In this document: positions 40,993 through 53,697 of the stretch, one piece after another | Layout: every line of letters begins with the position of its first letter | Position numbering within the stretch: position 1 is the first letter of the stretch | From: Corynebacterium marinum DSM 44953 | Lineage (GTDB): Bacteria; Actinomycetota; Actinomycetes; Mycobacteriales; Mycobacteriaceae | NCBI RefSeq assembly: GCF_000835165.1 | Contig: NZ_CP007790.1 | Span: forward strand, 558,001-622,000 | Length of the DNA: 64,000 bases | Direction: 5' to 3' | Made by a program: the position numbers and the translations under genes | Notes under the pieces: generated by a model | Databases searched by the model: none | What the model was told of the DNA's origin: nothing | The model's input: only the letters and a program-made list of their open reading frames with translations

Positions 40993-41365
40993 GGGGCTGA
41001 TTTGGTTTCGACTTCGTATATTGAGCCAGGGGAAGCGTGCCGGTGCAGGCTGAGGACCACCGTAAGCGTCGCAGCAAACCTATAAGCGCCGAGAACACTC
41101 AGCGCGACTACGCCCTCGCTGCCTAAGTAGCGACCGCGTGTCTGTCAGACCGGACTTGCCTCTGATCCGGACCCTGGCATCGACAAGGAGGCTTGCCTTC
41201 CGGCCGCGTCAGCGGGACCGGACGGGACACCCACCGCTGACTGGGCCCATCATCCGGGACGAGTTCGTCCGAGCCGGAGGGCCGAGTAGAGATCTGGCGC
41301 GAACTGCGCACGGAGAAGCCCTGGCGAGGTAACGGAGGACCCGGGTTCAATTCCCGGCAGCTCCA
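40993..41365 (+). ncRNA. ssrA: transfer-messenger RNA (ssrA)
   Basis: The alanyl-tRNA-like acceptor is GGGGCTG (40993-40999) with CAGCTCC (41358-41364), including the G3-U70 pair that alanyl-tRNA synthetase needs. The tag frame is 41088-41126, encoding AENTQRDYALAA then TAA, the corynebacterial type of degradation tag ending in LAA. The discriminator A is 41365, followed by CTA rather than CCA, so the CCA end must be added enzymatically. The 3' end was supplied by an integrated element: the 16 bases 41351-41366 recur at 52526-52541. With SmpB encoded just upstream, the trans-translation pair is complete. Confidence 0.95.
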
Positions 41366-41366
41366 C
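41351..41366 (+). repeat. attachment site repeat, left (attL core)
   Basis: TTCCCGGCAGCTCCAC, the 3' end of the T-arm and acceptor of tmRNA, identical to 52526-52541. Outside these 16 bases the two copies diverge at once (TAACAG here, CGAAGA on the right), which defines the crossover core. Confidence 0.9.
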
Positions 41367-41532: not shown

Positions 41533-42819
41533 ATGGCAACGACACGGCAGCGCACCCGGCGCGGGTTCGGGGCTATCCGCCGCCTACCATCGGGCCGCTA
41601 CCAGGCGACCTATCAAGGGCCCGACGGGGCGCGACACAAGGCCCTGAACACGTTCGCCGCCAAGGTAGACGCCGAAGGGTGGTTATCGGCAGAACAACGC
41701 CTCATCGACCTGGAGACATGGACCCCACCGGCGGTGCGACGGGAACAGGCCGCACAGGACGCGACCACCGTAGGGGAGTGGTTGGAGCAGTTTCACACCA
41801 ACCTGGAGCACCGCCCCACCCCGCCGCGGGCCTCCACCATGCAGAACTACCGGCGAGTCACCCGTAACCGGATCACCGCCCCCCTTCCCCCCGGCGACGA
41901 CGTACCGGACGTTACCCGCCTGTCCTCCCTGCCCCTGGTGAAGTTGACGAAGGGCGACGTCTACCGCTGGTGGGACGGAGTGCAACGGGCCTATCCTGAC
42001 GCCCATACGATCAACCAACAGGCCTACAAGCGCTTACGTGCGGGATGTGCCGAGGCCGTACGCCGGGAGATGCTACCCACCAACCCTGTAGAGGTCCCCG
42101 AGGCCGGTAGACGGGTCAAGACGAACGAGAAGTACCTACCATCGGATGAGGAGCTACAGGCCATTCTGGAGGCCGTCCCGGCGCGCTATAAGGTGCTCAC
42201 GTCCCTCATGCTGTTCCACGGGCTCCGCATCGGTGAGGCTATCGCCCTGGAGCGCCGTCACGTGGCCGTGGAATGGCTTCCCGTGCCCTATATGCCGCGG
42301 GTGACGGTGACAGTGGAGCAGAACGCCCAACGGCTCACGGGCGATGATGGGCGTGTGTTCATGCACGTCCAGCCCCCGAAGTCTGACGCAGGCTACCGGG
42401 AGGTACCAATCATGGCTAACCACGTGCCCCTGTTTCTGAGCCACCTGGACGAGCACGTACCCGGCGCGCCCACGACGGTGGAGACGTGGCAGGGGCCGCG
42501 GAAGATGACGCTACTGACCGCCACCCGCACCGGGGGGCTGGTCATGGATACGTCCTACCGGTCGGTGCTGGAACGCGCCGAGATCCGCGCCGGGGTCACC
42601 ACCGAGATCGACCCCCACTGTGGACGGAACTGGTTGATTACCCGCCTCGCCGAGCAGGGGGCACACCTCAAGGAAATTGGCCGACTACTGGGTCAGGCTG
42701 ATGTGGCGACGATCCTCGATGTGTACATGAAAGTTCGCGCCGGGCGCACCACGGCGTTGATGGATCGAGTGAACGCATCGGTCATGCCCGCCGCGACGAC
42801 CGGGAAGACAGAGCAGTGA
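41533..42819 (+). CDS. int: tyrosine-type site-specific integrase
   Basis: 428 residues. An N-terminal arm-binding/SAM-like half (residues 1-190) precedes the catalytic domain. Catalytic residues can be read: Arg in LFHGLRIGEAIAL (about residue 233), Lys in PPKSDAGYREVPI (about 285), HxxR in DPHCGRNWLITRL (about 358-361), Gln in LLGQADVATI at the usual second His position, and the nucleophile Tyr in LDVYMKV (about 397). The Gln for His change is tolerated in many integrases. It lies at the left end beside attL. Codon use (CTA leucines, GGG glycines) differs from neighbouring core genes. RBS AGGAG lies at about 41523-41527. Confidence 0.95.
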   Translation: MATTRQRTRRGFGAIRRLPSGRYQATYQGPDGARHKALNTFAAKVDAEGWLSAEQRLIDLETWTPPAVRREQAAQDATTVGEWLEQFHTNLEHRPTPPRASTMQNYRRVTRNRITAPLPPGDDVPDVTRLSSLPLVKLTKGDVYRWWDGVQRAYPDAHTINQQAYKRLRAGCAEAVRREMLPTNPVEVPEAGRRVKTNEKYLPSDEELQAILEAVPARYKVLTSLMLFHGLRIGEAIALERRHVAVEWLPVPYMPRVTVTVEQNAQRLTGDDGRVFMHVQPPKSDAGYREVPIMANHVPLFLSHLDEHVPGAPTTVETWQGPRKMTLLTATRTGGLVMDTSYRSVLERAEIRAGVTTEIDPHCGRNWLITRLAEQGAHLKEIGRLLGQADVATILDVYMKVRAGRTTALMDRVNASVMPAATTGKTEQ

Positions 42820-43821: not shown

Positions 43822-44378
43822 ACGACAGGAAAACCCCCGCGCCGGGAAACACGGGGGCAAACATCGAGCACAGGGCTGCCTTCACCCCCAATTCTACCAG
43901 CAGGGAGCTGGAAGCCGCATTCCTCCGGGCCCTCCTCGGCCTCCCAGCGCGCCGGGTCTTGACCGTCCTCAACGGCCTGGAGCCGGACGACATCCACCAC
44001 CCTCACCATAGGCTCATCCTTGATGCCGTCGCCCGGTGCGCGAGGAAACAGATCAACGACCGTGACGGGAACCAGCCGGTGCCCCCGACTGCCATGCAGC
44101 TCGACCTGACGCGCGCCGGGACCCTCGACCACCCCGACGTCCGCGCCGTCCTCCTCGACGTCACCGCCGGGGTCAACCCGGTGCCCGACTGTTGGGTGAT
44201 CGACCTCGCCGCTGAACTTCGTCTCTACCGTCTGCGCCGCGCCCTGACGACCGTGGGGGAGTCCCTGATCTCAGCCGCCCATGGCGGCACCGACGAACTC
44301 ACCCGCGCCCTAGCCCACCTCCTCGCACTGCTCGGCCTCGCCCGGCGCGCCGGGATCGACATGGAGGTGGACCGATGA
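43818..44378 (+). CDS. DnaB N-terminal-domain-like protein of the island replication operon
   Basis: 186 residues. After a polar leader, residues 30-90 (SRELEAAFLRALLGLPARR followed by DDIHHPHHRLILDAVARCA) match the helical N-terminal domain of replicative helicases (DnaB-N), the part that contacts primase, but no ATPase domain follows in this chain. The ATPase is encoded by the next gene, with a four-base overlap. The two chains together therefore resemble a split DnaB/RepA replication unit. This is inference from domain layout. No membrane or signal segments. Confidence 0.75.
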   Translation: MNDRKTPAPGNTGANIEHRAAFTPNSTSRELEAAFLRALLGLPARRVLTVLNGLEPDDIHHPHHRLILDAVARCARKQINDRDGNQPVPPTAMQLDLTRAGTLDHPDVRAVLLDVTAGVNPVPDCWVIDLAAELRLYRLRRALTTVGESLISAAHGGTDELTRALAHLLALLGLARRAGIDMEVDR

Positions 44379-45931
44379 ACGCTGACTACCTCACCTCCCC
44401 GGAACACTCCGCGGGCCGTCGAATCACCCTTGAGTCCTTCGCAGGCATGGACTGGGATGTAGCGACATGGGCATGGGAGCCGGAGTTCGACGGACAACCC
44501 CACGGCGCTATTCCCGTGGGATCTCTGTCTATCTTCGCTGGCCGTCCTGCCGCCGGTAAATCGTCTGCCGGTCGTTACTTCGCCGCGCAAGTCAGCCGGG
44601 GTACTCTCCCCGGTTGCTGGGAAGGCACCCCGCACGGTGTCGCCTACATCGCCGGGGAAGAGTCACTGAAGTACAACGTCATCCCCAGCCTGATCGCCGC
44701 CGGTGCGGACATGGAAAAGGTCTTCCGACCGCACGTCACCTTCACCGCACCGGATGGGGTGACCGAGGTTGTCGCCCTGGTCCCGGAGAAGGACATGCGG
44801 GAGCTCACCGACCAGCTGAAGGCGATGGGCACGAAACTGGTCATTGTTGACCCGCTGATGGAGTACATGGGCGACGGCTCCGACATCTACAAGAACAACG
44901 AGGTCCGCGCGAAAGTCAGGCCGTGGTCCAAACTTGCCGAGGATATTGACGGCGTGGTCATTGCGATCATGCACCTGAACAAGTCCGGTAACGGTGACGT
45001 AGTGGCCGGCATCAACGGATCTTCCGCTTTCGGCGAAGTCGCCCGGTCTGTCTTCGGTTTCGCGAAAGACCCGGAGAGCGAAGACCTCGACCGGGTCATG
45101 AGCCAGGAAAAGAACTCGATCGGCGCTGAGGGCGCGGCATGGGTGTACCGGATTGAGGGGAAGGCGATCACCAACTCCGAGGGAAAGACCGGAGAGTTCG
45201 GAACCTTTGTCATGGTCGGTGACTCTGACCGGACCGTGGGTGAAGTCCTCCGAGACTCATCCTTCGGTTCCGGTGGGGACGGAGTGGGTGGGGTGAAGTC
45301 CTTCGTCCTGGATCTGCTCAAGGATGAAGGCGGTGTCGCCCCGGCCTCGACGATCAAGAGTGGCGTCACTGAGGCCGGCTACTCGTGGAAGACGGTTCAG
45401 AACAACCGGGGGAAGTGGGGAATCGCCACCCGCAAGTCTGAATCCGGTTGGGTGTGGGAGCTGGAATCAGCGGGGAAGGCTGCACCCTCCCTGTATGTAT
45501 CCAAGATCCCGGAAGGTGATGAAGGTCCTTACGCGCGGGATCCCGGGACCTTGGGATCTTCAAAGGTCACGGGTATAAATCAAGATCCCGACGGGGCAAG
45601 ATCCCAAGATCCCGCACATATAGGCGCGCCGGGATCTTCCCCGAAACCGGGGGTCTTCTCTCAGCCGGAACTCTCGGGTGACACCGAGCTGGAGGACATC
45701 GTTATCGGGTGCTTTCCTGCTGAGTGCCCCATGAGTTTGCAGACCGTTGAACAGTCTGTCCCGCCGGAGCACCGCGACCAGGTCGCTGAAATTCTCACTC
45801 AGTTGGTCGCCGACGGCCGGGTCATCCAAGATGTCGGCGGCCGCTATCTCCGCAATTTTCCTCCGGCCCTCGTTGCCACGGGAGAGGTCGAGGATCGCGG
45901 AGATATCACCTCCTCCCCGGAGGCAGACTGA
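44375..45931 (+). CDS. AAA/RepA-DnaB type ATPase, island replication protein
   Basis: 518 residues. A RecA-like ATPase core (residues 40-290) has Walker A FAGRPAAGKSSAGRYF (about residue 62), an acidic VAYIAGEES strand, Walker B KLVIVDPLMEYMGDG (about 155), and the HLNKSGNGDVVAGINGSSAF segment typical of RepA-like hexameric helicases. After it come a winged-helix-like part (residues 305-355), a Pro/Gly/Asp-rich linker and a second small helical domain (SLQTVEQSVPPEHRDQV). The linker's DNA is the AAGATCCC repeat cluster. It is expected to unwind the element's origin. The stop overlaps the next start by one base (TGATG). Confidence 0.85.
   Translation: MNADYLTSPEHSAGRRITLESFAGMDWDVATWAWEPEFDGQPHGAIPVGSLSIFAGRPAAGKSSAGRYFAAQVSRGTLPGCWEGTPHGVAYIAGEESLKYNVIPSLIAAGADMEKVFRPHVTFTAPDGVTEVVALVPEKDMRELTDQLKAMGTKLVIVDPLMEYMGDGSDIYKNNEVRAKVRPWSKLAEDIDGVVIAIMHLNKSGNGDVVAGINGSSAFGEVARSVFGFAKDPESEDLDRVMSQEKNSIGAEGAAWVYRIEGKAITNSEGKTGEFGTFVMVGDSDRTVGEVLRDSSFGSGGDGVGGVKSFVLDLLKDEGGVAPASTIKSGVTEAGYSWKTVQNNRGKWGIATRKSESGWVWELESAGKAAPSLYVSKIPEGDEGPYARDPGTLGSSKVTGINQDPDGARSQDPAHIGAPGSSPKPGVFSQPELSGDTELEDIVIGCFPAECPMSLQTVEQSVPPEHRDQVAEILTQLVADGRVIQDVGGRYLRNFPPALVATGEVEDRGDITSSPEAD
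45503..45638. repeat. cluster of AAGATCCC repeats (putative iterons/origin) inside the ATPase gene
   Basis: Four direct copies of AAGATCCC at 45503-45510, 45582-45589, 45598-45605 and 45606-45613 (the last two abutting), two inverted copies GGGATCTT at 45553-45560 and 45631-45638, and the palindrome GGGATCCC at 45537-45544, all within 136 bp. Two AT-rich patches (GGTATAAAT at 45572-45580, CACATATA at 45615-45622) lie among them. An 8-mer would occur by chance far less than once in such a stretch. Repeats of this kind in a rep gene resemble the lambda origin within gene O. Confidence 0.6.
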
Positions 45932-46122: not shown

Positions 46123-49100
46123 TTACCTCATGGCGCGGAGCGCGTCGGGGTTGATGACGTCGCCGAAGCGCTGGATGAGCCCGTCGATGGCATCGGCAAC
46201 GTCCTGCTTGGCCGCCTGACGGTCGTTGCCCGGGGAGAAGAGGCTCATCTTCGGCAGGAGCTCGGCTAGAGCAGTGCCCTCAGCATCGACGGTGCCGATC
46301 TGAAAGCACTTGGCGACGAACCCATGGGCGTTCGGGGTTTTGAGCCGGTGGGCTGCGACCATGGCGCGGATCTCGCCCTCGGCCTTCTCATGCAGATAGT
46401 CGACCAGGCTATCGTCGTATCCGGTGCCGTTGACCTGGTCGAGGAACTCGAGGATCAGATCGCGCTTAGGGCGCAGGTGCGGCGATGCATCGATGAGTCG
46501 GCGGACTTCTTGCTGCTCATCGTCGTCGATCTCGCCGTCGCGTCCACGTTCCTTCTCGATGAGCGCGTTGATGTAGTCGAGGGTCACGGCGATGTGTCGG
46601 ACCAGCTCGATCTCGAACTCAAGGTCCGCGGAGATGTCGACGTCGGTCTCGCCGCCGTCGCCGGACTCGGCCTCGCGCTCCTCCCTGCGACGGTCACGGA
46701 TCTCCAGGTAGCGGGAGATGTAGTCGGCGAAGTCGTACTCGTCCAGCGGGTTGTCCTCGTCGAAGGCTTCAAAGGACGTCAGGACGTTGTGGTGGCGCAG
46801 AAGCGCGGAGAAGGTCTCGACGAACAGCTGCTCGGCTGCCTCGCCGTAGACGGACGCTCCCGGTGCCGCGATGGCCTGCAGCTGATCCAGATATGTCAGG
46901 TACTCGGCCAGCAGCTCCTTGTAGGGGCGGACGACGGAGACATTGGTAGCGACGTCACCGTCGCCGAACATCGTCAGTGCCGCGTCTGTCTGCTCGGATA
47001 GGTCGCGGTAGGTGACGATCATGCCCGCGTCCTTGATGGGGTTGAGGATGCGGTTAGTGCGCGAGAACGCCTGGATGAGGCCATGGTCGCGGAGATTCTT
47101 GTCGACGAACAGGGTATTGAGGGCCGGGGCGTCGAAGCCGGTGAGGAAGATGTTGACGACGATGACGAGGTCGATCTCACGGTTGCGGATGCGTTCGGAG
47201 AGGTTCTTGTAGTAGTTGTCGTAGCCGCTGGTTGTAGCCTGGAAAGACGAGCCGAACATGGCGTTGTAGTCGGCGACTGCGGCGGCAAAGTCGGCGCGGT
47301 CGTCAGCGTTCATGGAGTCGACGTCGAAGCTGTCGTCCTCGATCGCGCCGGCTGCGGTGTCCACGGTCTCTTGGCGCTGAGTCTGAGAATAGATCACGCC
47401 CACCTTAATAGGGTTGACCAGTTCCTCCTGCTGCTTGGCAAACTCGTGGTAGTAGGCGCGAGCAGCGGGGATACTGGCGGTCGCTAGCAGCGCGTTGAAG
47501 CCGTCGACGCGACGGCTTTCGCGGGTCGTCTCGCCCGTGGCGAGGTCACGGAAGCTCAAGTTGTGGACATAGCTCTTGCCGCGCTTGGTGTAGCGGGCGA
47601 AGTTGTCGAGGATGTGCTTCGTGACGAGCGTAATCCGCTCGGGCGCCAGCAGTGCGCTCTCGCGGTCGATGGACTTGATCTCGGGGTTGTTCTGGACCTC
47701 CTCGTGCATCGTCGAGTGCGCGTCGATCTTGAACTTGAGGACGTTACGGTCCCTAATGGCGTCGACGATGGTGTACGTGTGCAGACGTTGGCCGAAGACG
47801 TAGTCGGTGGTGAAGACGCGGCCAGAGACGTCCTTGCGGGCGATCTCCTTGAAGATGGGGGTGCCGGTGAAGCCGAAGCTGTGGCGCCGCTTGAAGTACC
47901 GGGCGATGGATTCGTGCATGGACCCGAACTGTGAGCGGTGGCACTCGTCGAAGATCAGCACTACGTGGCCGGGGTAGCGGGCGTTCTTCGTCTTGCCGGA
48001 GATGTAGGTGTTTAGCTTCTGGATGGTTGTGACGATGATCTTGGACTTCTCATCCTCGTCTTCCAGCTGCTCACCCAGGATCTTCGTGGAGGTGTTGGAG
48101 GAGACGGAACCCTTCTGGAAGCGTTCGTATTCCTTGATGGTCTGGTAGTCGAGGTCCTGGCGGTCGACGGCGAAGATGACCTTCTCGATGCCGGGCAGGT
48201 CGGCGGCGAGCAGCGCGGCTTTGAAGCTGGTCAGCGTCTTGCCTGAGCCGGTCGTGTGCCAGATGTAGCCGCCGGCGTCGGTGGTGCCGAGGAGCTTGGT
48301 GTTGCTGGTGGCACGGATCCTGTCAAGGATGCGCTCGGTGGCGGCAATCTGATAGGGCCGCATGACCAGCAGGTTCTCGCTCGTGTCAAAGATGCAGTAA
48401 CGGGTCAGGATGCGCAGGAGCGTGGCCTTGACCATGAAGGTCTGTGAGAAGTCGAGGAGGTCGAGAATGACCCGGTTCCTGGCGTCGGCCCAGTAGGACG
48501 TGAACGCGAAGGATTTGTCCGCTTGCTGGGAGCGAGTCTTTGCAGAGGCGCTGTTGGCGCGCACGGCCAGGTCACGGGTGGTGTTGGAGTAGTACCGTGT
48601 GTCAGTGCCATTGGAGATGACAAACAGTTGCGCGTAGCCAAAGAGCTTGGTGCCTGCCTGGAAGGACTGCTGGTAGCGGCTGATCTGCGTGAAGGCCTCT
48701 TTGAGGCTCACGCCGCGACGTTTAAGCTCGATGTGGACCATCGGCAGGCCGTTGACCAGCACCGTGACGTCATATCGCTGATTCCTGTTGTCTGCGGTGG
48801 TGGTCCGGTACTGGTTGGTCACCTGCAACCGGTTGGACATGAGGTTGCGCTTGTCGATGAGTTTGACGTTGACCTGCGTGTCGTCGTCGCGGGTGATAGT
48901 CACCACGGGGTCGTCCTGCTGGATAAGGGCGGTCCGCTTGGCCTGGGTCATCGTCGGGTTGGCGAGGTGGACGTGGAAGATCTGAGTCCATTCGTCGGCG
49001 GTGTAGACGGTGTGGTTGAGCGCCTCCAGCTGGGCCTTGAGGTTGTCGAGCAGTTCCGCCTCGCTGCGGATGGTGGCTTTGGTGTAGCCGACCTGGGTTA

Positions 49101-49260
49101 GCGAATCCATGAACAGCGCCTCCAGCTCGGCCTCGGACTGCTTGCCCGTGGGCCTCGGCCGTGATTGGTCAGCCTCGTACTCCGCGAGGACGGTGCTGTA
49201 GTCAGACTCAGCGACGTTGTCGGTCGCCTGGCGGGGCTGCTGGGACGGCGTGCTGTTCAT
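46123..49260 (-). CDS. hsdR: type I restriction endonuclease subunit R
   Basis: 1045 residues. The N-terminal nuclease domain contains RYDVTVLVNGLPMVHIELKRRG (Asp, Glu-Leu-Lys of the PD-(D/E)xK site, about residues 164-185). The SF2 translocase follows: HTTGSGKTLTSFKAALL (Walker A), IFDECHRSQFG (motif II), FTGTPIF (motif III), then the second motor with QAFSRTNRILN (motif VI). A helical C-terminus contacts the methylase. HsdR cleaves DNA remotely after ATP-driven translocation when the site is unmethylated. It starts 21 bases after the hsdS stop and closes the module; the stop abuts the broken HNH remnant. Confidence 0.95.
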   Translation of the reverse strand: MNSTPSQQPRQATDNVAESDYSTVLAEYEADQSRPRPTGKQSEAELEALFMDSLTQVGYTKATIRSEAELLDNLKAQLEALNHTVYTADEWTQIFHVHLANPTMTQAKRTALIQQDDPVVTITRDDDTQVNVKLIDKRNLMSNRLQVTNQYRTTTADNRNQRYDVTVLVNGLPMVHIELKRRGVSLKEAFTQISRYQQSFQAGTKLFGYAQLFVISNGTDTRYYSNTTRDLAVRANSASAKTRSQQADKSFAFTSYWADARNRVILDLLDFSQTFMVKATLLRILTRYCIFDTSENLLVMRPYQIAATERILDRIRATSNTKLLGTTDAGGYIWHTTGSGKTLTSFKAALLAADLPGIEKVIFAVDRQDLDYQTIKEYERFQKGSVSSNTSTKILGEQLEDEDEKSKIIVTTIQKLNTYISGKTKNARYPGHVVLIFDECHRSQFGSMHESIARYFKRRHSFGFTGTPIFKEIARKDVSGRVFTTDYVFGQRLHTYTIVDAIRDRNVLKFKIDAHSTMHEEVQNNPEIKSIDRESALLAPERITLVTKHILDNFARYTKRGKSYVHNLSFRDLATGETTRESRRVDGFNALLATASIPAARAYYHEFAKQQEELVNPIKVGVIYSQTQRQETVDTAAGAIEDDSFDVDSMNADDRADFAAAVADYNAMFGSSFQATTSGYDNYYKNLSERIRNREIDLVIVVNIFLTGFDAPALNTLFVDKNLRDHGLIQAFSRTNRILNPIKDAGMIVTYRDLSEQTDAALTMFGDGDVATNVSVVRPYKELLAEYLTYLDQLQAIAAPGASVYGEAAEQLFVETFSALLRHHNVLTSFEAFDEDNPLDEYDFADYISRYLEIRDRRREEREAESGDGGETDVDISADLEFEIELVRHIAVTLDYINALIEKERGRDGEIDDDEQQEVRRLIDASPHLRPKRDLILEFLDQVNGTGYDDSLVDYLHEKAEGEIRAMVAAHRLKTPNAHGFVAKCFQIGTVDAEGTALAELLPKMSLFSPGNDRQAAKQDVADAIDGLIQRFGDVINPDALRAMR

Positions 49261-49281
49261 GGTCTCGGCACCTCTGGTCGG

Positions 49282-49881
49282 CTACTCGGCTACGGGGAAG
49301 GTCAGTAGCTGGTCTCGATAGTATTCGAGCTGCTGGAGGCGCAGGTCGAGCTCGCGGCGCAGATTGGTGGTGTAGTCGGTGAACATGTCGAGAATGGCGA
49401 CAATCTGTTCCTGGACATCGGGATGCGGGAGTGGGACCTCGAAGTGAGAGTACGTCTGTATCCATTGACGTTGGTGTTGGGTTGGCTGATAGGGGATTGT
49501 TTGCATTACCCAATAGACATAGCGGAGGTTGACATCGTCAGTTTGGGGTAAGAGCATCTTCATTGCCGACGACTTAACCTTGAACGGGAAATCAACCCAA
49601 TGGAAGTTTGTGGTGAAGTCATCGAAGATGATCGTGGGATTGCTAGACGAAGCGTCGAATATCCCATCGGTTTCGTTGGTGTAGCCGAGGAGGAATCCTT
49701 TTCCGGGGCTAAGCACTGGGGTGGGTGCTGAAGGATCATAGGCTGCGGACTTCACCTGGTATCTTCCGGGCTGGACGTGCTTAAGTAGTTCCAGTAGAGG
49801 AACCGTAGGCACCCCTTCTAGACAACGTTCTTCGAGTAATTCTCTGATAGCTGGCACCGGGTAAGAGTCATACTTACTCAT
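49282..49881 (-). CDS. hsdS: half-length type I specificity subunit S (single target-recognition domain)
   Basis: 199 residues, about half of the usual 380-450. There is one target-recognition domain (LLELLKHVQPGRYQVKSAAY through VKSSAMKMLLPQ) and one conserved coiled-coil repeat (VQEQIVAILDMFTDYTTNLR with RLQQLEYYRDQLL at the end). A normal HsdS has two of each. ATG 49881 is internal to the hsdM 3' end, overlapping by eight bases. GC content is visibly lower here than in flanking genes, usual for exchanged recognition domains. Either it dimerises, as half-S subunits are known to do, giving a palindromic split target, or the other half was lost. No second half is seen nearby. Confidence 0.9.
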   Translation of the reverse strand: MSKYDSYPVPAIRELLEERCLEGVPTVPLLELLKHVQPGRYQVKSAAYDPSAPTPVLSPGKGFLLGYTNETDGIFDASSSNPTIIFDDFTTNFHWVDFPFKVKSSAMKMLLPQTDDVNLRYVYWVMQTIPYQPTQHQRQWIQTYSHFEVPLPHPDVQEQIVAILDMFTDYTTNLRRELDLRLQQLEYYRDQLLTFPVAE

Positions 49882-51460
49882 TGATAGTTGCCTCCTCGCC
49901 CTGGATGAACGCGTTGATGCGCTCGCGCAAGTCGGCCTGCACGATCTCCAGATCCGCGAGCTCGGCGTTGACGGCATCGATGTCGAGGGCCTCGCGGGTG
50001 TCTTCCCTTTTCACGTAGGTTGACACCGACAGATTGTAGTCGTTAGCAATGATTTCTTCGTTGTCGACTACTCGGACGAAGTGGTCCACGTCAGCGCGGT
50101 TGACGACGGCCTTGACGATGCTGTCCTGGTTCGCTTTGCTGAGGCGGTTCTTGGCTCCAACCTTCTCGCACCTGTCGCTGGCGTCGACAAACACCACGGT
50201 GTTGTCTGGCTTAGACTTCTTGAGCACCAGAATGGCCGTCCTGATGGTGACGCCGTAGAAAAGGTTCGGCGGCAGCTGGATGACGGCATCGACGACGCCT
50301 GAGTCGATCAGGTACGTGCGAATCGCGATCTCACCCTTGCTATTGATGCGGTGGAGCACGCCCGGGTAGGAGACGATGGCGGCAGCGCCGGTGTCCTTGA
50401 GCCAGTGCAGGATGTGCATGACAAAGGCGAGGTCGGAGTTGGCTCTGGGGGCCAGCTCACCGGCCGGGGAGAACCGGGGATCGTTAATGAGCACCGGATC
50501 CGAGTTGCCTGGCCATGACGTCGAGTACGGCGGGTTGGAAACAATGGCGTCGAAGGGCTGCTCGTCCCAGTGGTAGGGCTTGGTCAGCGTGTTGCCGTTG
50601 TAGATGTCAAAGCGTTCGTAGCCGATTCCGTGCAGGATCATGTTCATGCGGGCGAGGTTGTATGTCGTCAGGTTGAGCTCCTGGCCGAAGTAGGACACGT
50701 CCTTATTGTCCGCGAGCTTGGCGAATTTGAGCAGGAGGGAACCGGAGCCGCAGGCTGGGTCGTAGACGCGCTCAACGGTGTCACGACCGATCATGGTGAG
50801 GCGGGCGACGACGTTAGACACCTCGGGTGGTGTGAAGTACTCGCCGCCGGAGCGGCCCGCGTCGGAGGCGAACATTCCCATGAGGTACTCGTAGATGTCG
50901 CCGAACTGGTCAATCTCGGATTCCCCGAAGCGGCCGAGGTCCAGCTTGGAGATGTTCTTCATGAGCCCACGGAGGCTGGCGACACGGTCCGTTGTGTCGC
51001 GTCCCAACTTGGGTGAGTTGGTGTCGATGTCGCTAAAGAGGCCCTCGAAGTCCTCCTCGCTGCCTGTGCCGACAGTCGATGCCTCGATGCCGGCGAAGAT
51101 GTTGGCGAGATCGACGTTGAGGTTGGGATTCTGTTCGTCCTTCGGGCGATCGTAGTCGACCAAGTTCTCGAAGAGCTTGCTCGGCGGGATGAAGTAGCCG
51201 AGCTCCTGGACGAGGGGCTCGCGAGCGAATTCGGCGGCATCGTCATCCATGGTGACGTAGTCGAAGCCGGTCTCGCCGGCCTGGGCCTGGTTGTCGTTGA
51301 TGTAGTCCGTGATGCGCTCGGAGATGTAGCGGTAGAAAAGGATGCCCAGGACGTAGCCCTTGAGATCCCAGCCATCGACCTGACCGCGAACCTCGTCCGC
51401 GATAGTCTCAAGTTGTTTGTGTAGTGCTGTTGTCTGGTCTGCCACCGTTGTCGGACTCAT
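49874..51460 (-). CDS. hsdM: type I restriction-modification DNA methyltransferase subunit M
   Basis: 528 residues. The N-terminal helical domain (residues 1-160) starts TVADQTTALHKQLETIADEV. The N6-adenine methylase domain has motif I YDPACGSGSLLLKF (about residue 238) and motif IV SNPPYSTSW (about 310). Such subunits methylate adenine in each half of the bipartite target when combined with HsdS. The ATG at 51460 is preceded by GGGAGACGG on the minus strand. A -10 element is present at 51507-51502. Gene order M-S-R with overlaps indicates one operon, read against the direction of the island genes. Confidence 0.96.
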   Translation of the reverse strand: MSPTTVADQTTALHKQLETIADEVRGQVDGWDLKGYVLGILFYRYISERITDYINDNQAQAGETGFDYVTMDDDAAEFAREPLVQELGYFIPPSKLFENLVDYDRPKDEQNPNLNVDLANIFAGIEASTVGTGSEEDFEGLFSDIDTNSPKLGRDTTDRVASLRGLMKNISKLDLGRFGESEIDQFGDIYEYLMGMFASDAGRSGGEYFTPPEVSNVVARLTMIGRDTVERVYDPACGSGSLLLKFAKLADNKDVSYFGQELNLTTYNLARMNMILHGIGYERFDIYNGNTLTKPYHWDEQPFDAIVSNPPYSTSWPGNSDPVLINDPRFSPAGELAPRANSDLAFVMHILHWLKDTGAAAIVSYPGVLHRINSKGEIAIRTYLIDSGVVDAVIQLPPNLFYGVTIRTAILVLKKSKPDNTVVFVDASDRCEKVGAKNRLSKANQDSIVKAVVNRADVDHFVRVVDNEEIIANDYNLSVSTYVKREDTREALDIDAVNAELADLEIVQADLRERINAFIQGEEATINE

Positions 51461-52525: not shown

Positions 52526-52541
52526 TTCCCGGCAGCTCCAC
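52526..52541 (+). repeat. attachment site repeat, right (attR core)
   Basis: TTCCCGGCAGCTCCAC, identical to 41351-41366. It is followed by CGAAGAGG and the original ssrA terminator, showing that this copy is the displaced host ssrA 3' end. Confidence 0.9.
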
Positions 52542-53579: not shown

Positions 53580-53656
53580 CGGACTGCGCAAGAGTAGTAA
53601 AGATCAGGGTTTACGGGGCCCGAATTCGGACCATCTTCACTACTCTTGCGCAGTCC
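53580..53656. repeat. 25-bp near-perfect inverted repeat with 27-base loop
   Basis: CGGACTGCGCAAGAGTAGT (53580-53598) then A, AAGAT is mirrored by ATCTT, C, ACTACTCTTGCGCAGTCCG (ending 53656): 24 of 25 pairs match. The loop contains GGGGCCCGAATTCGG. No U-tract follows on either strand, so it is not an ordinary terminator, although it lies between convergent genes. It may be a REP-type element, a mobile-element relic or a structured RNA end. Confidence 0.7.
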
Positions 53657-53697
53657 GCGCCCCTGATCACTCAGGGACGCGGCGGGTGGTGCCACTA

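Follow-up and report, generated by a model that had tools for sequence, protein, structure and literature searches.

The Rep protein of Staphylococcus aureus pathogenicity islands (SaPI) and Cch2 of the staphylococcal cassette chromosome mec (SCCmec) each bind, by means of a C-terminal domain, iterons that lie immediately 3' of their own gene (PMC7581432); the origins of phage-inducible chromosomal islands (PICI) are described as two iteron sets on either side of an A+T-rich region that closely follows rep (PMC6092414), and the lambda origin lies in the middle of the O gene (PMC7466680). The window considered here is a 64,000-nucleotide stretch of Corynebacterium marinum DSM 44953 (contig NZ_CP007790.1, positions 558,001 to 622,000); it contains a mobile element whose rep ATPase gene carries a cluster of short repeats in the linker between two winged helix-turn-helix domains (wHTH1 and wHTH2). 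From the sequences it is probable that these repeats are origin iterons embedded in the linker of the initiator, that they are read by wHTH1, and that they are exchanged with wHTH1 as one cassette. Among the papers listed by literature searches, none describes this system to judge by title or abstract opening, which is weak evidence of novelty as subscription papers are poorly covered.

The rep ATPase, a putative initiator, matches Pfam AAA_25 (E 1.3e-17) and a PHROG primase/polymerase family (E 3.6e-74). Its AlphaFold2 (AF2) model has a mean predicted local distance difference test score (pLDDT) of 81; Foldseek returns RecA/RadA as the best match of the model (E ~1e-9), with a TM-score by query length of at most 0.33. 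As a sequence-only reading of this DNA had reported, six exact copies of one 8-mer, AAGATCCC, four direct and two inverted, lie in 136 bp of the gene (Table 1); they span codons 377-422, within the linker of the AF2 model (residues 368-435), and the palindrome described among them is GGGATCCC at 45537-45544. The AT-rich patches of the same reading are weak, the 20-bp windows examined reaching at most 60% A+T. With two one-mismatch copies, both inverted, the array covers 45503-45657. The peptides encoded by the exact copies are KIP, LGSS, QDP, ARS, QDP and PGSS; every reading frame and each strand is used, so it is a DNA word that repeats and not a peptide.

AAGATCCC is seen eight times in the window against 1.43 expected, a count that none of 100 shuffles attains, and 57 times in the 2.73-Mb genome; the 51 copies outside the cluster are close to the chance frequency that the window shuffles suggest (1.43 per 64 kb), a count that does not refute the reading as embedded iterons. 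Chance clustering of a common word could draw on this background frequency and on nothing more, and its probability is negligible: at the density outside the cluster, the Poisson probability of six copies in 136 bp is about 3e-19 per stretch, and arrays occur at the same place in relatives. The window array is a set of short repeats clustered beyond chance near a putative initiator gene, as is characteristic of iteron origins. A gapless tandem of AAGATCCC occurs in 2 of 242 Corynebacterium genomes, each time at these ATPase genes. Eleven looser pairs, in ten other Corynebacterium genomes, never exceed two copies per 200 bp; in viral contigs the head-to-tail pattern is limited to four stretches, each with a single pair that has no further copy within 1 kb, and by eye none of the open reading frames (ORFs) of at least 100 aa listed near these pairs resembles this ATPase.

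Homologs of the ATPase (E<=0.001) are present in 19 of the 242 Corynebacterium genomes, the window's own included; together these genomes hold 22 places in addition to that of the window. The aligned set comprises 22 genes: that of the window, 19 of the 22 places, one from another family (L045) and the gene of plasmid pCG2 (L005); three partial places, two in genome G145 and one in G211, were excluded. These genes have in common a wHTH1 ending near an invariant W, after which the sequences diverge. In the 300 bp past the end of wHTH1, the 8-mer count is matched by none of 200 shuffles in 14 of the 22 genes, by one in two genes and by three in another; in L032, L033 and L034 only 7-mers stand out (0-2 of 200 shuffles). 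The repeat words vary among relatives (AAGGTACC, AAGATCAC, AAGATTCC, TAGGTCCC, CAACATCC, CAGTTGGG, TCGTGCCA, TGTCGCAA, TAGGGACA and others). In many relatives the position of the array is kept while linker and repeat sequences vary, in agreement with the earlier suggestion that the linker is kept for the DNA rather than the protein; relatives that conserve the linker protein and lack the repeats are not the pattern found, many keeping the array instead. In L026, the closest relative (ATPase 156/260 identical), the gene ends shortly beyond wHTH1 and its array is found 3' of the stop codon. L029 encodes a 510-aa protein that is 100% identical to that of L097, a C. variabile record. L042 is far more distant (ATPase 56/251 identical, 22%; wHTH1 24/70), yet its word is again AAGATCCC, in seven copies across the stop codon with a layout near that of the window, and its wHTH1 likewise contains SWKT..N.R..WGI, the motif that pairs with AAGATCCC.

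Scans of genomes and viral contigs with single-protein queries returned no relatives; a query made from the alignment did find them, giving held-out sets of 41 named-genome and 80 IMG/VR loci. Removal of seven duplicates from each set and of four viral loci with sequence ending too early left 34 named-genome and 69 viral loci. An array was called from 7/8-mers in the 350 bp right after the wHTH1 codons, at no more than 1 of 200 shuffles; by this threshold 15/20 Corynebacterium, 24/34 named-genome and 31/69 viral loci are positive, and at 0 of 200 shuffles the counts are 15/20, 23/34 and 30/69. Positives that are also matched by at most 1% of windows from their own locus number 14/20, 18/34 and 23/69 in the same order; two phage loci, L079 and L080, satisfy the shuffle test and fail this own-locus control. 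With 0 of 100 shuffles as the limit, control stretches are positive in 0/20, 2/34 and 0/69 loci when taken inside the ATPase, in 0/20, 0/34 and 2/69 when taken immediately before, and in 1/20, 4/33 and 1/67 when taken 1 kb downstream.

Layout and covariation were analyzed in 62 loci, out of 130 tabulated, whose arrays are at <=1/200 shuffles and <=2% of own windows. Of these arrays, 37 are wholly within the gene, 20 are wholly 3' of the stop codon and five extend across it; both strands are used in 57, and same-strand neighbours are spaced by 8 or 9 bp in 72 of the 148 cases under 40 bp. Two or more combinations of frame and strand are found in 33 of the 37 coding arrays. The order of one forward copy, an inverted group and a forward group is seen in the window and in L029, L042, L081 and L112. 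A 10-mer core, GCAGGTCAGA, counted on both strands with up to one mismatch, is present in 19 of the 62 array regions though their iterons differ; 40 shuffles give a mean of 2.0 and a maximum of 6, and the preceding 350 bp give 1. In the L081+ subset the core is found in 13 of 46 regions (shuffles: mean 1.5, maximum 4). In 14 of the 19 an exact iteron is no more than 10 bp away, and in L037 and L090 the core is far from any; carriers of the core include L028, L030, L081, L111, L112, L119 and L157.

The likely reader of the repeat is the ATPase's own first winged helix, to judge from covariation. Across the 62 loci the similarity of the repeats follows that of wHTH1 (r 0.59; 0.57 given the ATPase, 0/2000 permutations), the partial r with the ATPase given wHTH1 being 0.02; in pairs with an ATPase score below 0.25 the correlation of repeat and wHTH1 is still 0.50. 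For pairs with ATPase scores above 0.5, mean repeat similarity is 0.84 when wHTH1 also exceeds 0.5 (21 pairs), 0.54 when wHTH1 is between 0.3 and 0.5 (20 pairs) and 0.35 when it is below 0.3 (114 pairs). With ATPase scores below 0.3, the repeat similarity is 0.32 at wHTH1 below 0.1 (762 pairs), 0.64 at 0.3-0.5 (59 pairs) and 0.60 above 0.5 (12 pairs). In records of Williamsia, Tsukamurella and Mycobacterium, repeats of the CAAGGGAGCA type accompany helices like SKDQAKRAKKRLG.

The single-contig genome G235 carries two copies of the gene, L035 and L043, in about 7 kb of alignable DNA. Identity is 91% over 3273 positions up to gene base 1495; from base 1868 in L035 and 2006 in L043 it is 97% over 2690 positions, and past 1.4 kb that only L043 has it is 93% over 1049 more. 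On the upstream side the likeness stops at about -1767. The sole unalike stretch within the gene, 372 bp in L035 and 510 bp in L043, is wHTH1 plus the array. At the protein level the N-terminal part agrees at 201/222 residues, the ATPase at 254/262 and wHTH1 at 20/69, and the last 85 residues (wHTH2) at 74/84; the repeats are AAGATTCC and TCGTGCCA. The simplest account of the two sequences is that wHTH1 and the array were exchanged together. The wHTH2 domain is an unlikely reader, as L035 and L043 retain it while the repeat changes, and L026, L042 and L081 have arrays and no wHTH2. GATC (Dam) sites as the point of the repeats were also considered and are rejected, since relatives use words that lack GATC.

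It is proposed that the RecA-type ATPase would bind the iterons through wHTH1, encoded just upstream, and that its subunits would assemble on the two opposed iteron groups in steps of 8-9 bp; such steps are only suggestive of a ring- or spiral-forming ATPase. The subunits may then distort and melt a short stretch between the groups and load there as a helicase, with the link to priming presumably supplied by the DnaB N-terminal-domain-like (DnaB-N) protein here, by Prim-Pol in pCG2 and by Toprim domains in others; AAA_25 relatives do carry fused primase domains of the Prim-Pol or Toprim type. Alternatively, wHTH1 may bind the array for autoregulation, copy control or partition (as a centromere), with the origin elsewhere. 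This is considered unlikely, because the arrays adjoin the DNA-binding domain of a helicase-like ATPase that is fused to primase domains in relatives, and the domain covarying with the repeats belongs to the ATPase itself; two opposed groups beside an initiator also resemble the published island origins (PMC6092414).

If the repeats are origin iterons read by wHTH1, the two must match and would therefore be inherited and exchanged as one cassette, an exchange that would let near-identical replicons differ in specificity. More generally, it is likely that in actinobacterial phages, satellites and plasmids the AAA_25 initiators have a wHTH1 and an adjacent iteron origin, often in-gene, which recombine as a unit between near-identical replicons and make new compatibility groups, the repeat being largely predictable from the recognition helix. 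The arrays would then point to the probable origin in many actinobacterial mobile elements, and the 62 loci would be a natural data set on how winged helices choose a DNA site; joint exchange of recognition domain and origin suggests a route by which closely related replicons could coexist in one genome.

By analogy, the system appears to join features of SaPI/PICI and lambda O on a different, RecA-type ATPase. Like SaPI/PICI and SCCmec Cch2, it has a putative helicase-initiator with a C-terminal DNA-binding domain and adjacent short iterons in an integrated element; PICI have two iteron sets around a central stretch, and the window has copies in both orientations. The SaPI/PICI helicases are of the D5/DUF927 type, whereas a RecA-fold AAA_25 ATPase is found here; their origin is immediately 3' of the initiator, whereas the window array is inside the gene, yet the arrays wholly 3' of the stop have that placement. 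The central stretch of PICI origins is described as A+T-rich, which that of the window is not clearly, and some relatives hold the conserved 10-mer; unlike in SaPI/PICI, the array is often in-gene with a second winged helix after it. Iterons embedded in a rep gene as in lambda O, which the sequence-only reading had proposed, is the best-supported interpretation, with arrays recurring at one place in relatives: in the window, as in lambda O and as in the wholly in-gene arrays, the iterons are inside the coding sequence of the (here putative) initiator. Lambda O has its iterons after the DNA-binding domain; it is no ATPase itself and acts together with P and the DnaB of the host. Here, unlike in lambda O, the proposed initiator is a helicase-like AAA_25 ATPase and the iterons vary with wHTH1 across relatives.

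The Prim-Pol/AAA_25 gene of the C. glutamicum plasmid pCG2 (L005) has an ATPase part 44% identical to that of the window and a repeat cluster after it; it differs in the Prim-Pol fusion, in an array wholly 3' of the stop and in the repeat, ACATACAT. Dense direct and inverted repeats, such as TACATGTATGTAAGTG, occupy 2360-2640 of pCG2 directly 3' of this gene and are a candidate for its origin.

Several observations weigh against the proposed origin and its reading by wHTH1. L039 and L045 have no repeat excess by the shuffle test in the 300 bp past wHTH1; 5/20 Corynebacterium, 10/34 named-genome and 38/69 viral loci fail the shuffle threshold, and no array was found at this place in the mycobacteriophage homologs L076 and L077, the Streptomyces plasmid L078 or L045. 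The window has no match to GCAGGTCAGA with up to one mismatch and only a weak counterpart, and its A+T richness is weak too. After dereplication to 29 loci the correlation of repeat and wHTH1 drops to 0.33 (0/5000 permutations; ATPase 0.01), and the permutation tests correct for shared ancestry only in part. L124 has the CAAGGGAG repeat and a wHTH1 unlike that of other CAAGGGAG loci (scores 0.08-0.31), so the correspondence is not one-to-one; pCG2, on our reading, has a second candidate rep gene. Finally, 4 of the 37 coding arrays have every exact copy in a single frame on a single strand, and the linkers of the relatives are of low complexity in the alignment, as would suit a protein linker that is repetitive by accident and kept for protein reasons. 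Such an origin of the repeats is hardly credible, since the window copies use every frame and both strands and 20 of the 62 arrays are noncoding, wholly 3' of the stop.

The surrounding element, of about 11.2 kb, lies between two copies of a 16-bp attachment-site (att)-like repeat, the left one coinciding with the tmRNA gene's 3' end (Table 1); an integrase, att-like repeats and replication genes are present, as a PICI-like phage satellite would have, and the HTH_23 protein resembles a small terminase subunit on sequence grounds. No structural gene was recognised among the element proteins scanned, an absence only partly examined. A function of the repeats in packaging or in interference with a helper phage would suit an element with an integrase, att-like repeats, a possibly terminase-like gene and no recognised structural gene; it is very improbable, as arrays also accompany homologs on viral contigs and the one of plasmid pCG2, and the repeat sequence follows the wHTH1 of the ATPase.

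Table 1. Features of the rep ATPase gene, its repeat array and the surrounding element (window positions)
Feature	Position	Strand	Basis or remark
att-like repeat, tmRNA gene 3' end, TTCCCGGCAGCTCCAC	41351..41366	+	
Tyrosine integrase	41533..42819	+	Pfam Phage_integrase E 2e-10
Separate DnaB N-terminal-domain-like protein, 186 aa	43818..44378	+	PHROG DnaB-like helicase E 4e-7
rep ATPase gene, 518 aa: RecA-fold AAA_25 ATPase, wHTH1, linker, wHTH2	44375..45931	+	Pfam, PHROG, AF2, Foldseek
ATPase domain, residues 20-290	44432..45244	+	Pfam and AF2 model
wHTH1, residues ~291-363, proposed repeat reader	45245..45463	+	AF2 model; covariation with repeat; cassette swap
Linker, codons 368-435	45476..45679	+	AF2 disordered, pLDDT ~33
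Iteron array, proposed origin core	45503..45657	.	Eight copies, two of them with one mismatch
Iteron AAGATCCC, reading frame 0 (KIP)	45503..45510	+	
One-mismatch iteron AAGGTCCC	45545..45552	-	
Iteron	45553..45560	-	
CAAAGGTCACGGG, a weak counterpart to the relatives' GCAGGTCAGA core, beside inverted iteron	45561..45573	+	By eye
Iteron	45582..45589	+	
Iteron; tandem pair with 45606 copy, 8-bp spacing	45598..45605	+	
Iteron	45606..45613	+	
Iteron	45631..45638	-	
One-mismatch iteron	45650..45657	-	
wHTH2, residues 437-493	45683..45853	+	AF2 model; missing from several relatives with arrays
HTH_23 protein, 174 aa	51811..52335	+	Pfam HTH_23 E 5e-8; PHROG phrog_645 (library label RNase E)
Second att-like repeat	52526..52541	+	

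Ten loci with relatives of the DnaB-N protein were also examined. In L066, L068, L069, L071, L073 and L074 (minus strand), a cluster of at least five copies (5-8) follows the partner gene on its 3' side within some 300 bp, and a repeat cluster is just 5' of the partner gene in L072; L067, L070 and L075 have no repeat cluster at the partner gene. Among the three partner ATPases scanned, that of L066 matches DUF3631, that of L071 is VapE-like and that of L068 has no Pfam match. Elsewhere in the relatives, a tandem repeat in a small ORF of L033 (18685-19164) encodes QPGAASS units, away from the replication gene. The opposite strand of the window element carries type I restriction-modification cargo at 46123-51460, consisting of hsdR, a candidate hsdS that is short (231 aa) and without a Pfam match, and hsdM. 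Just beyond the element, at 53580-53657, lies a 25-nt inverted repeat that is 96% complementary, with 28 nt between its arms.
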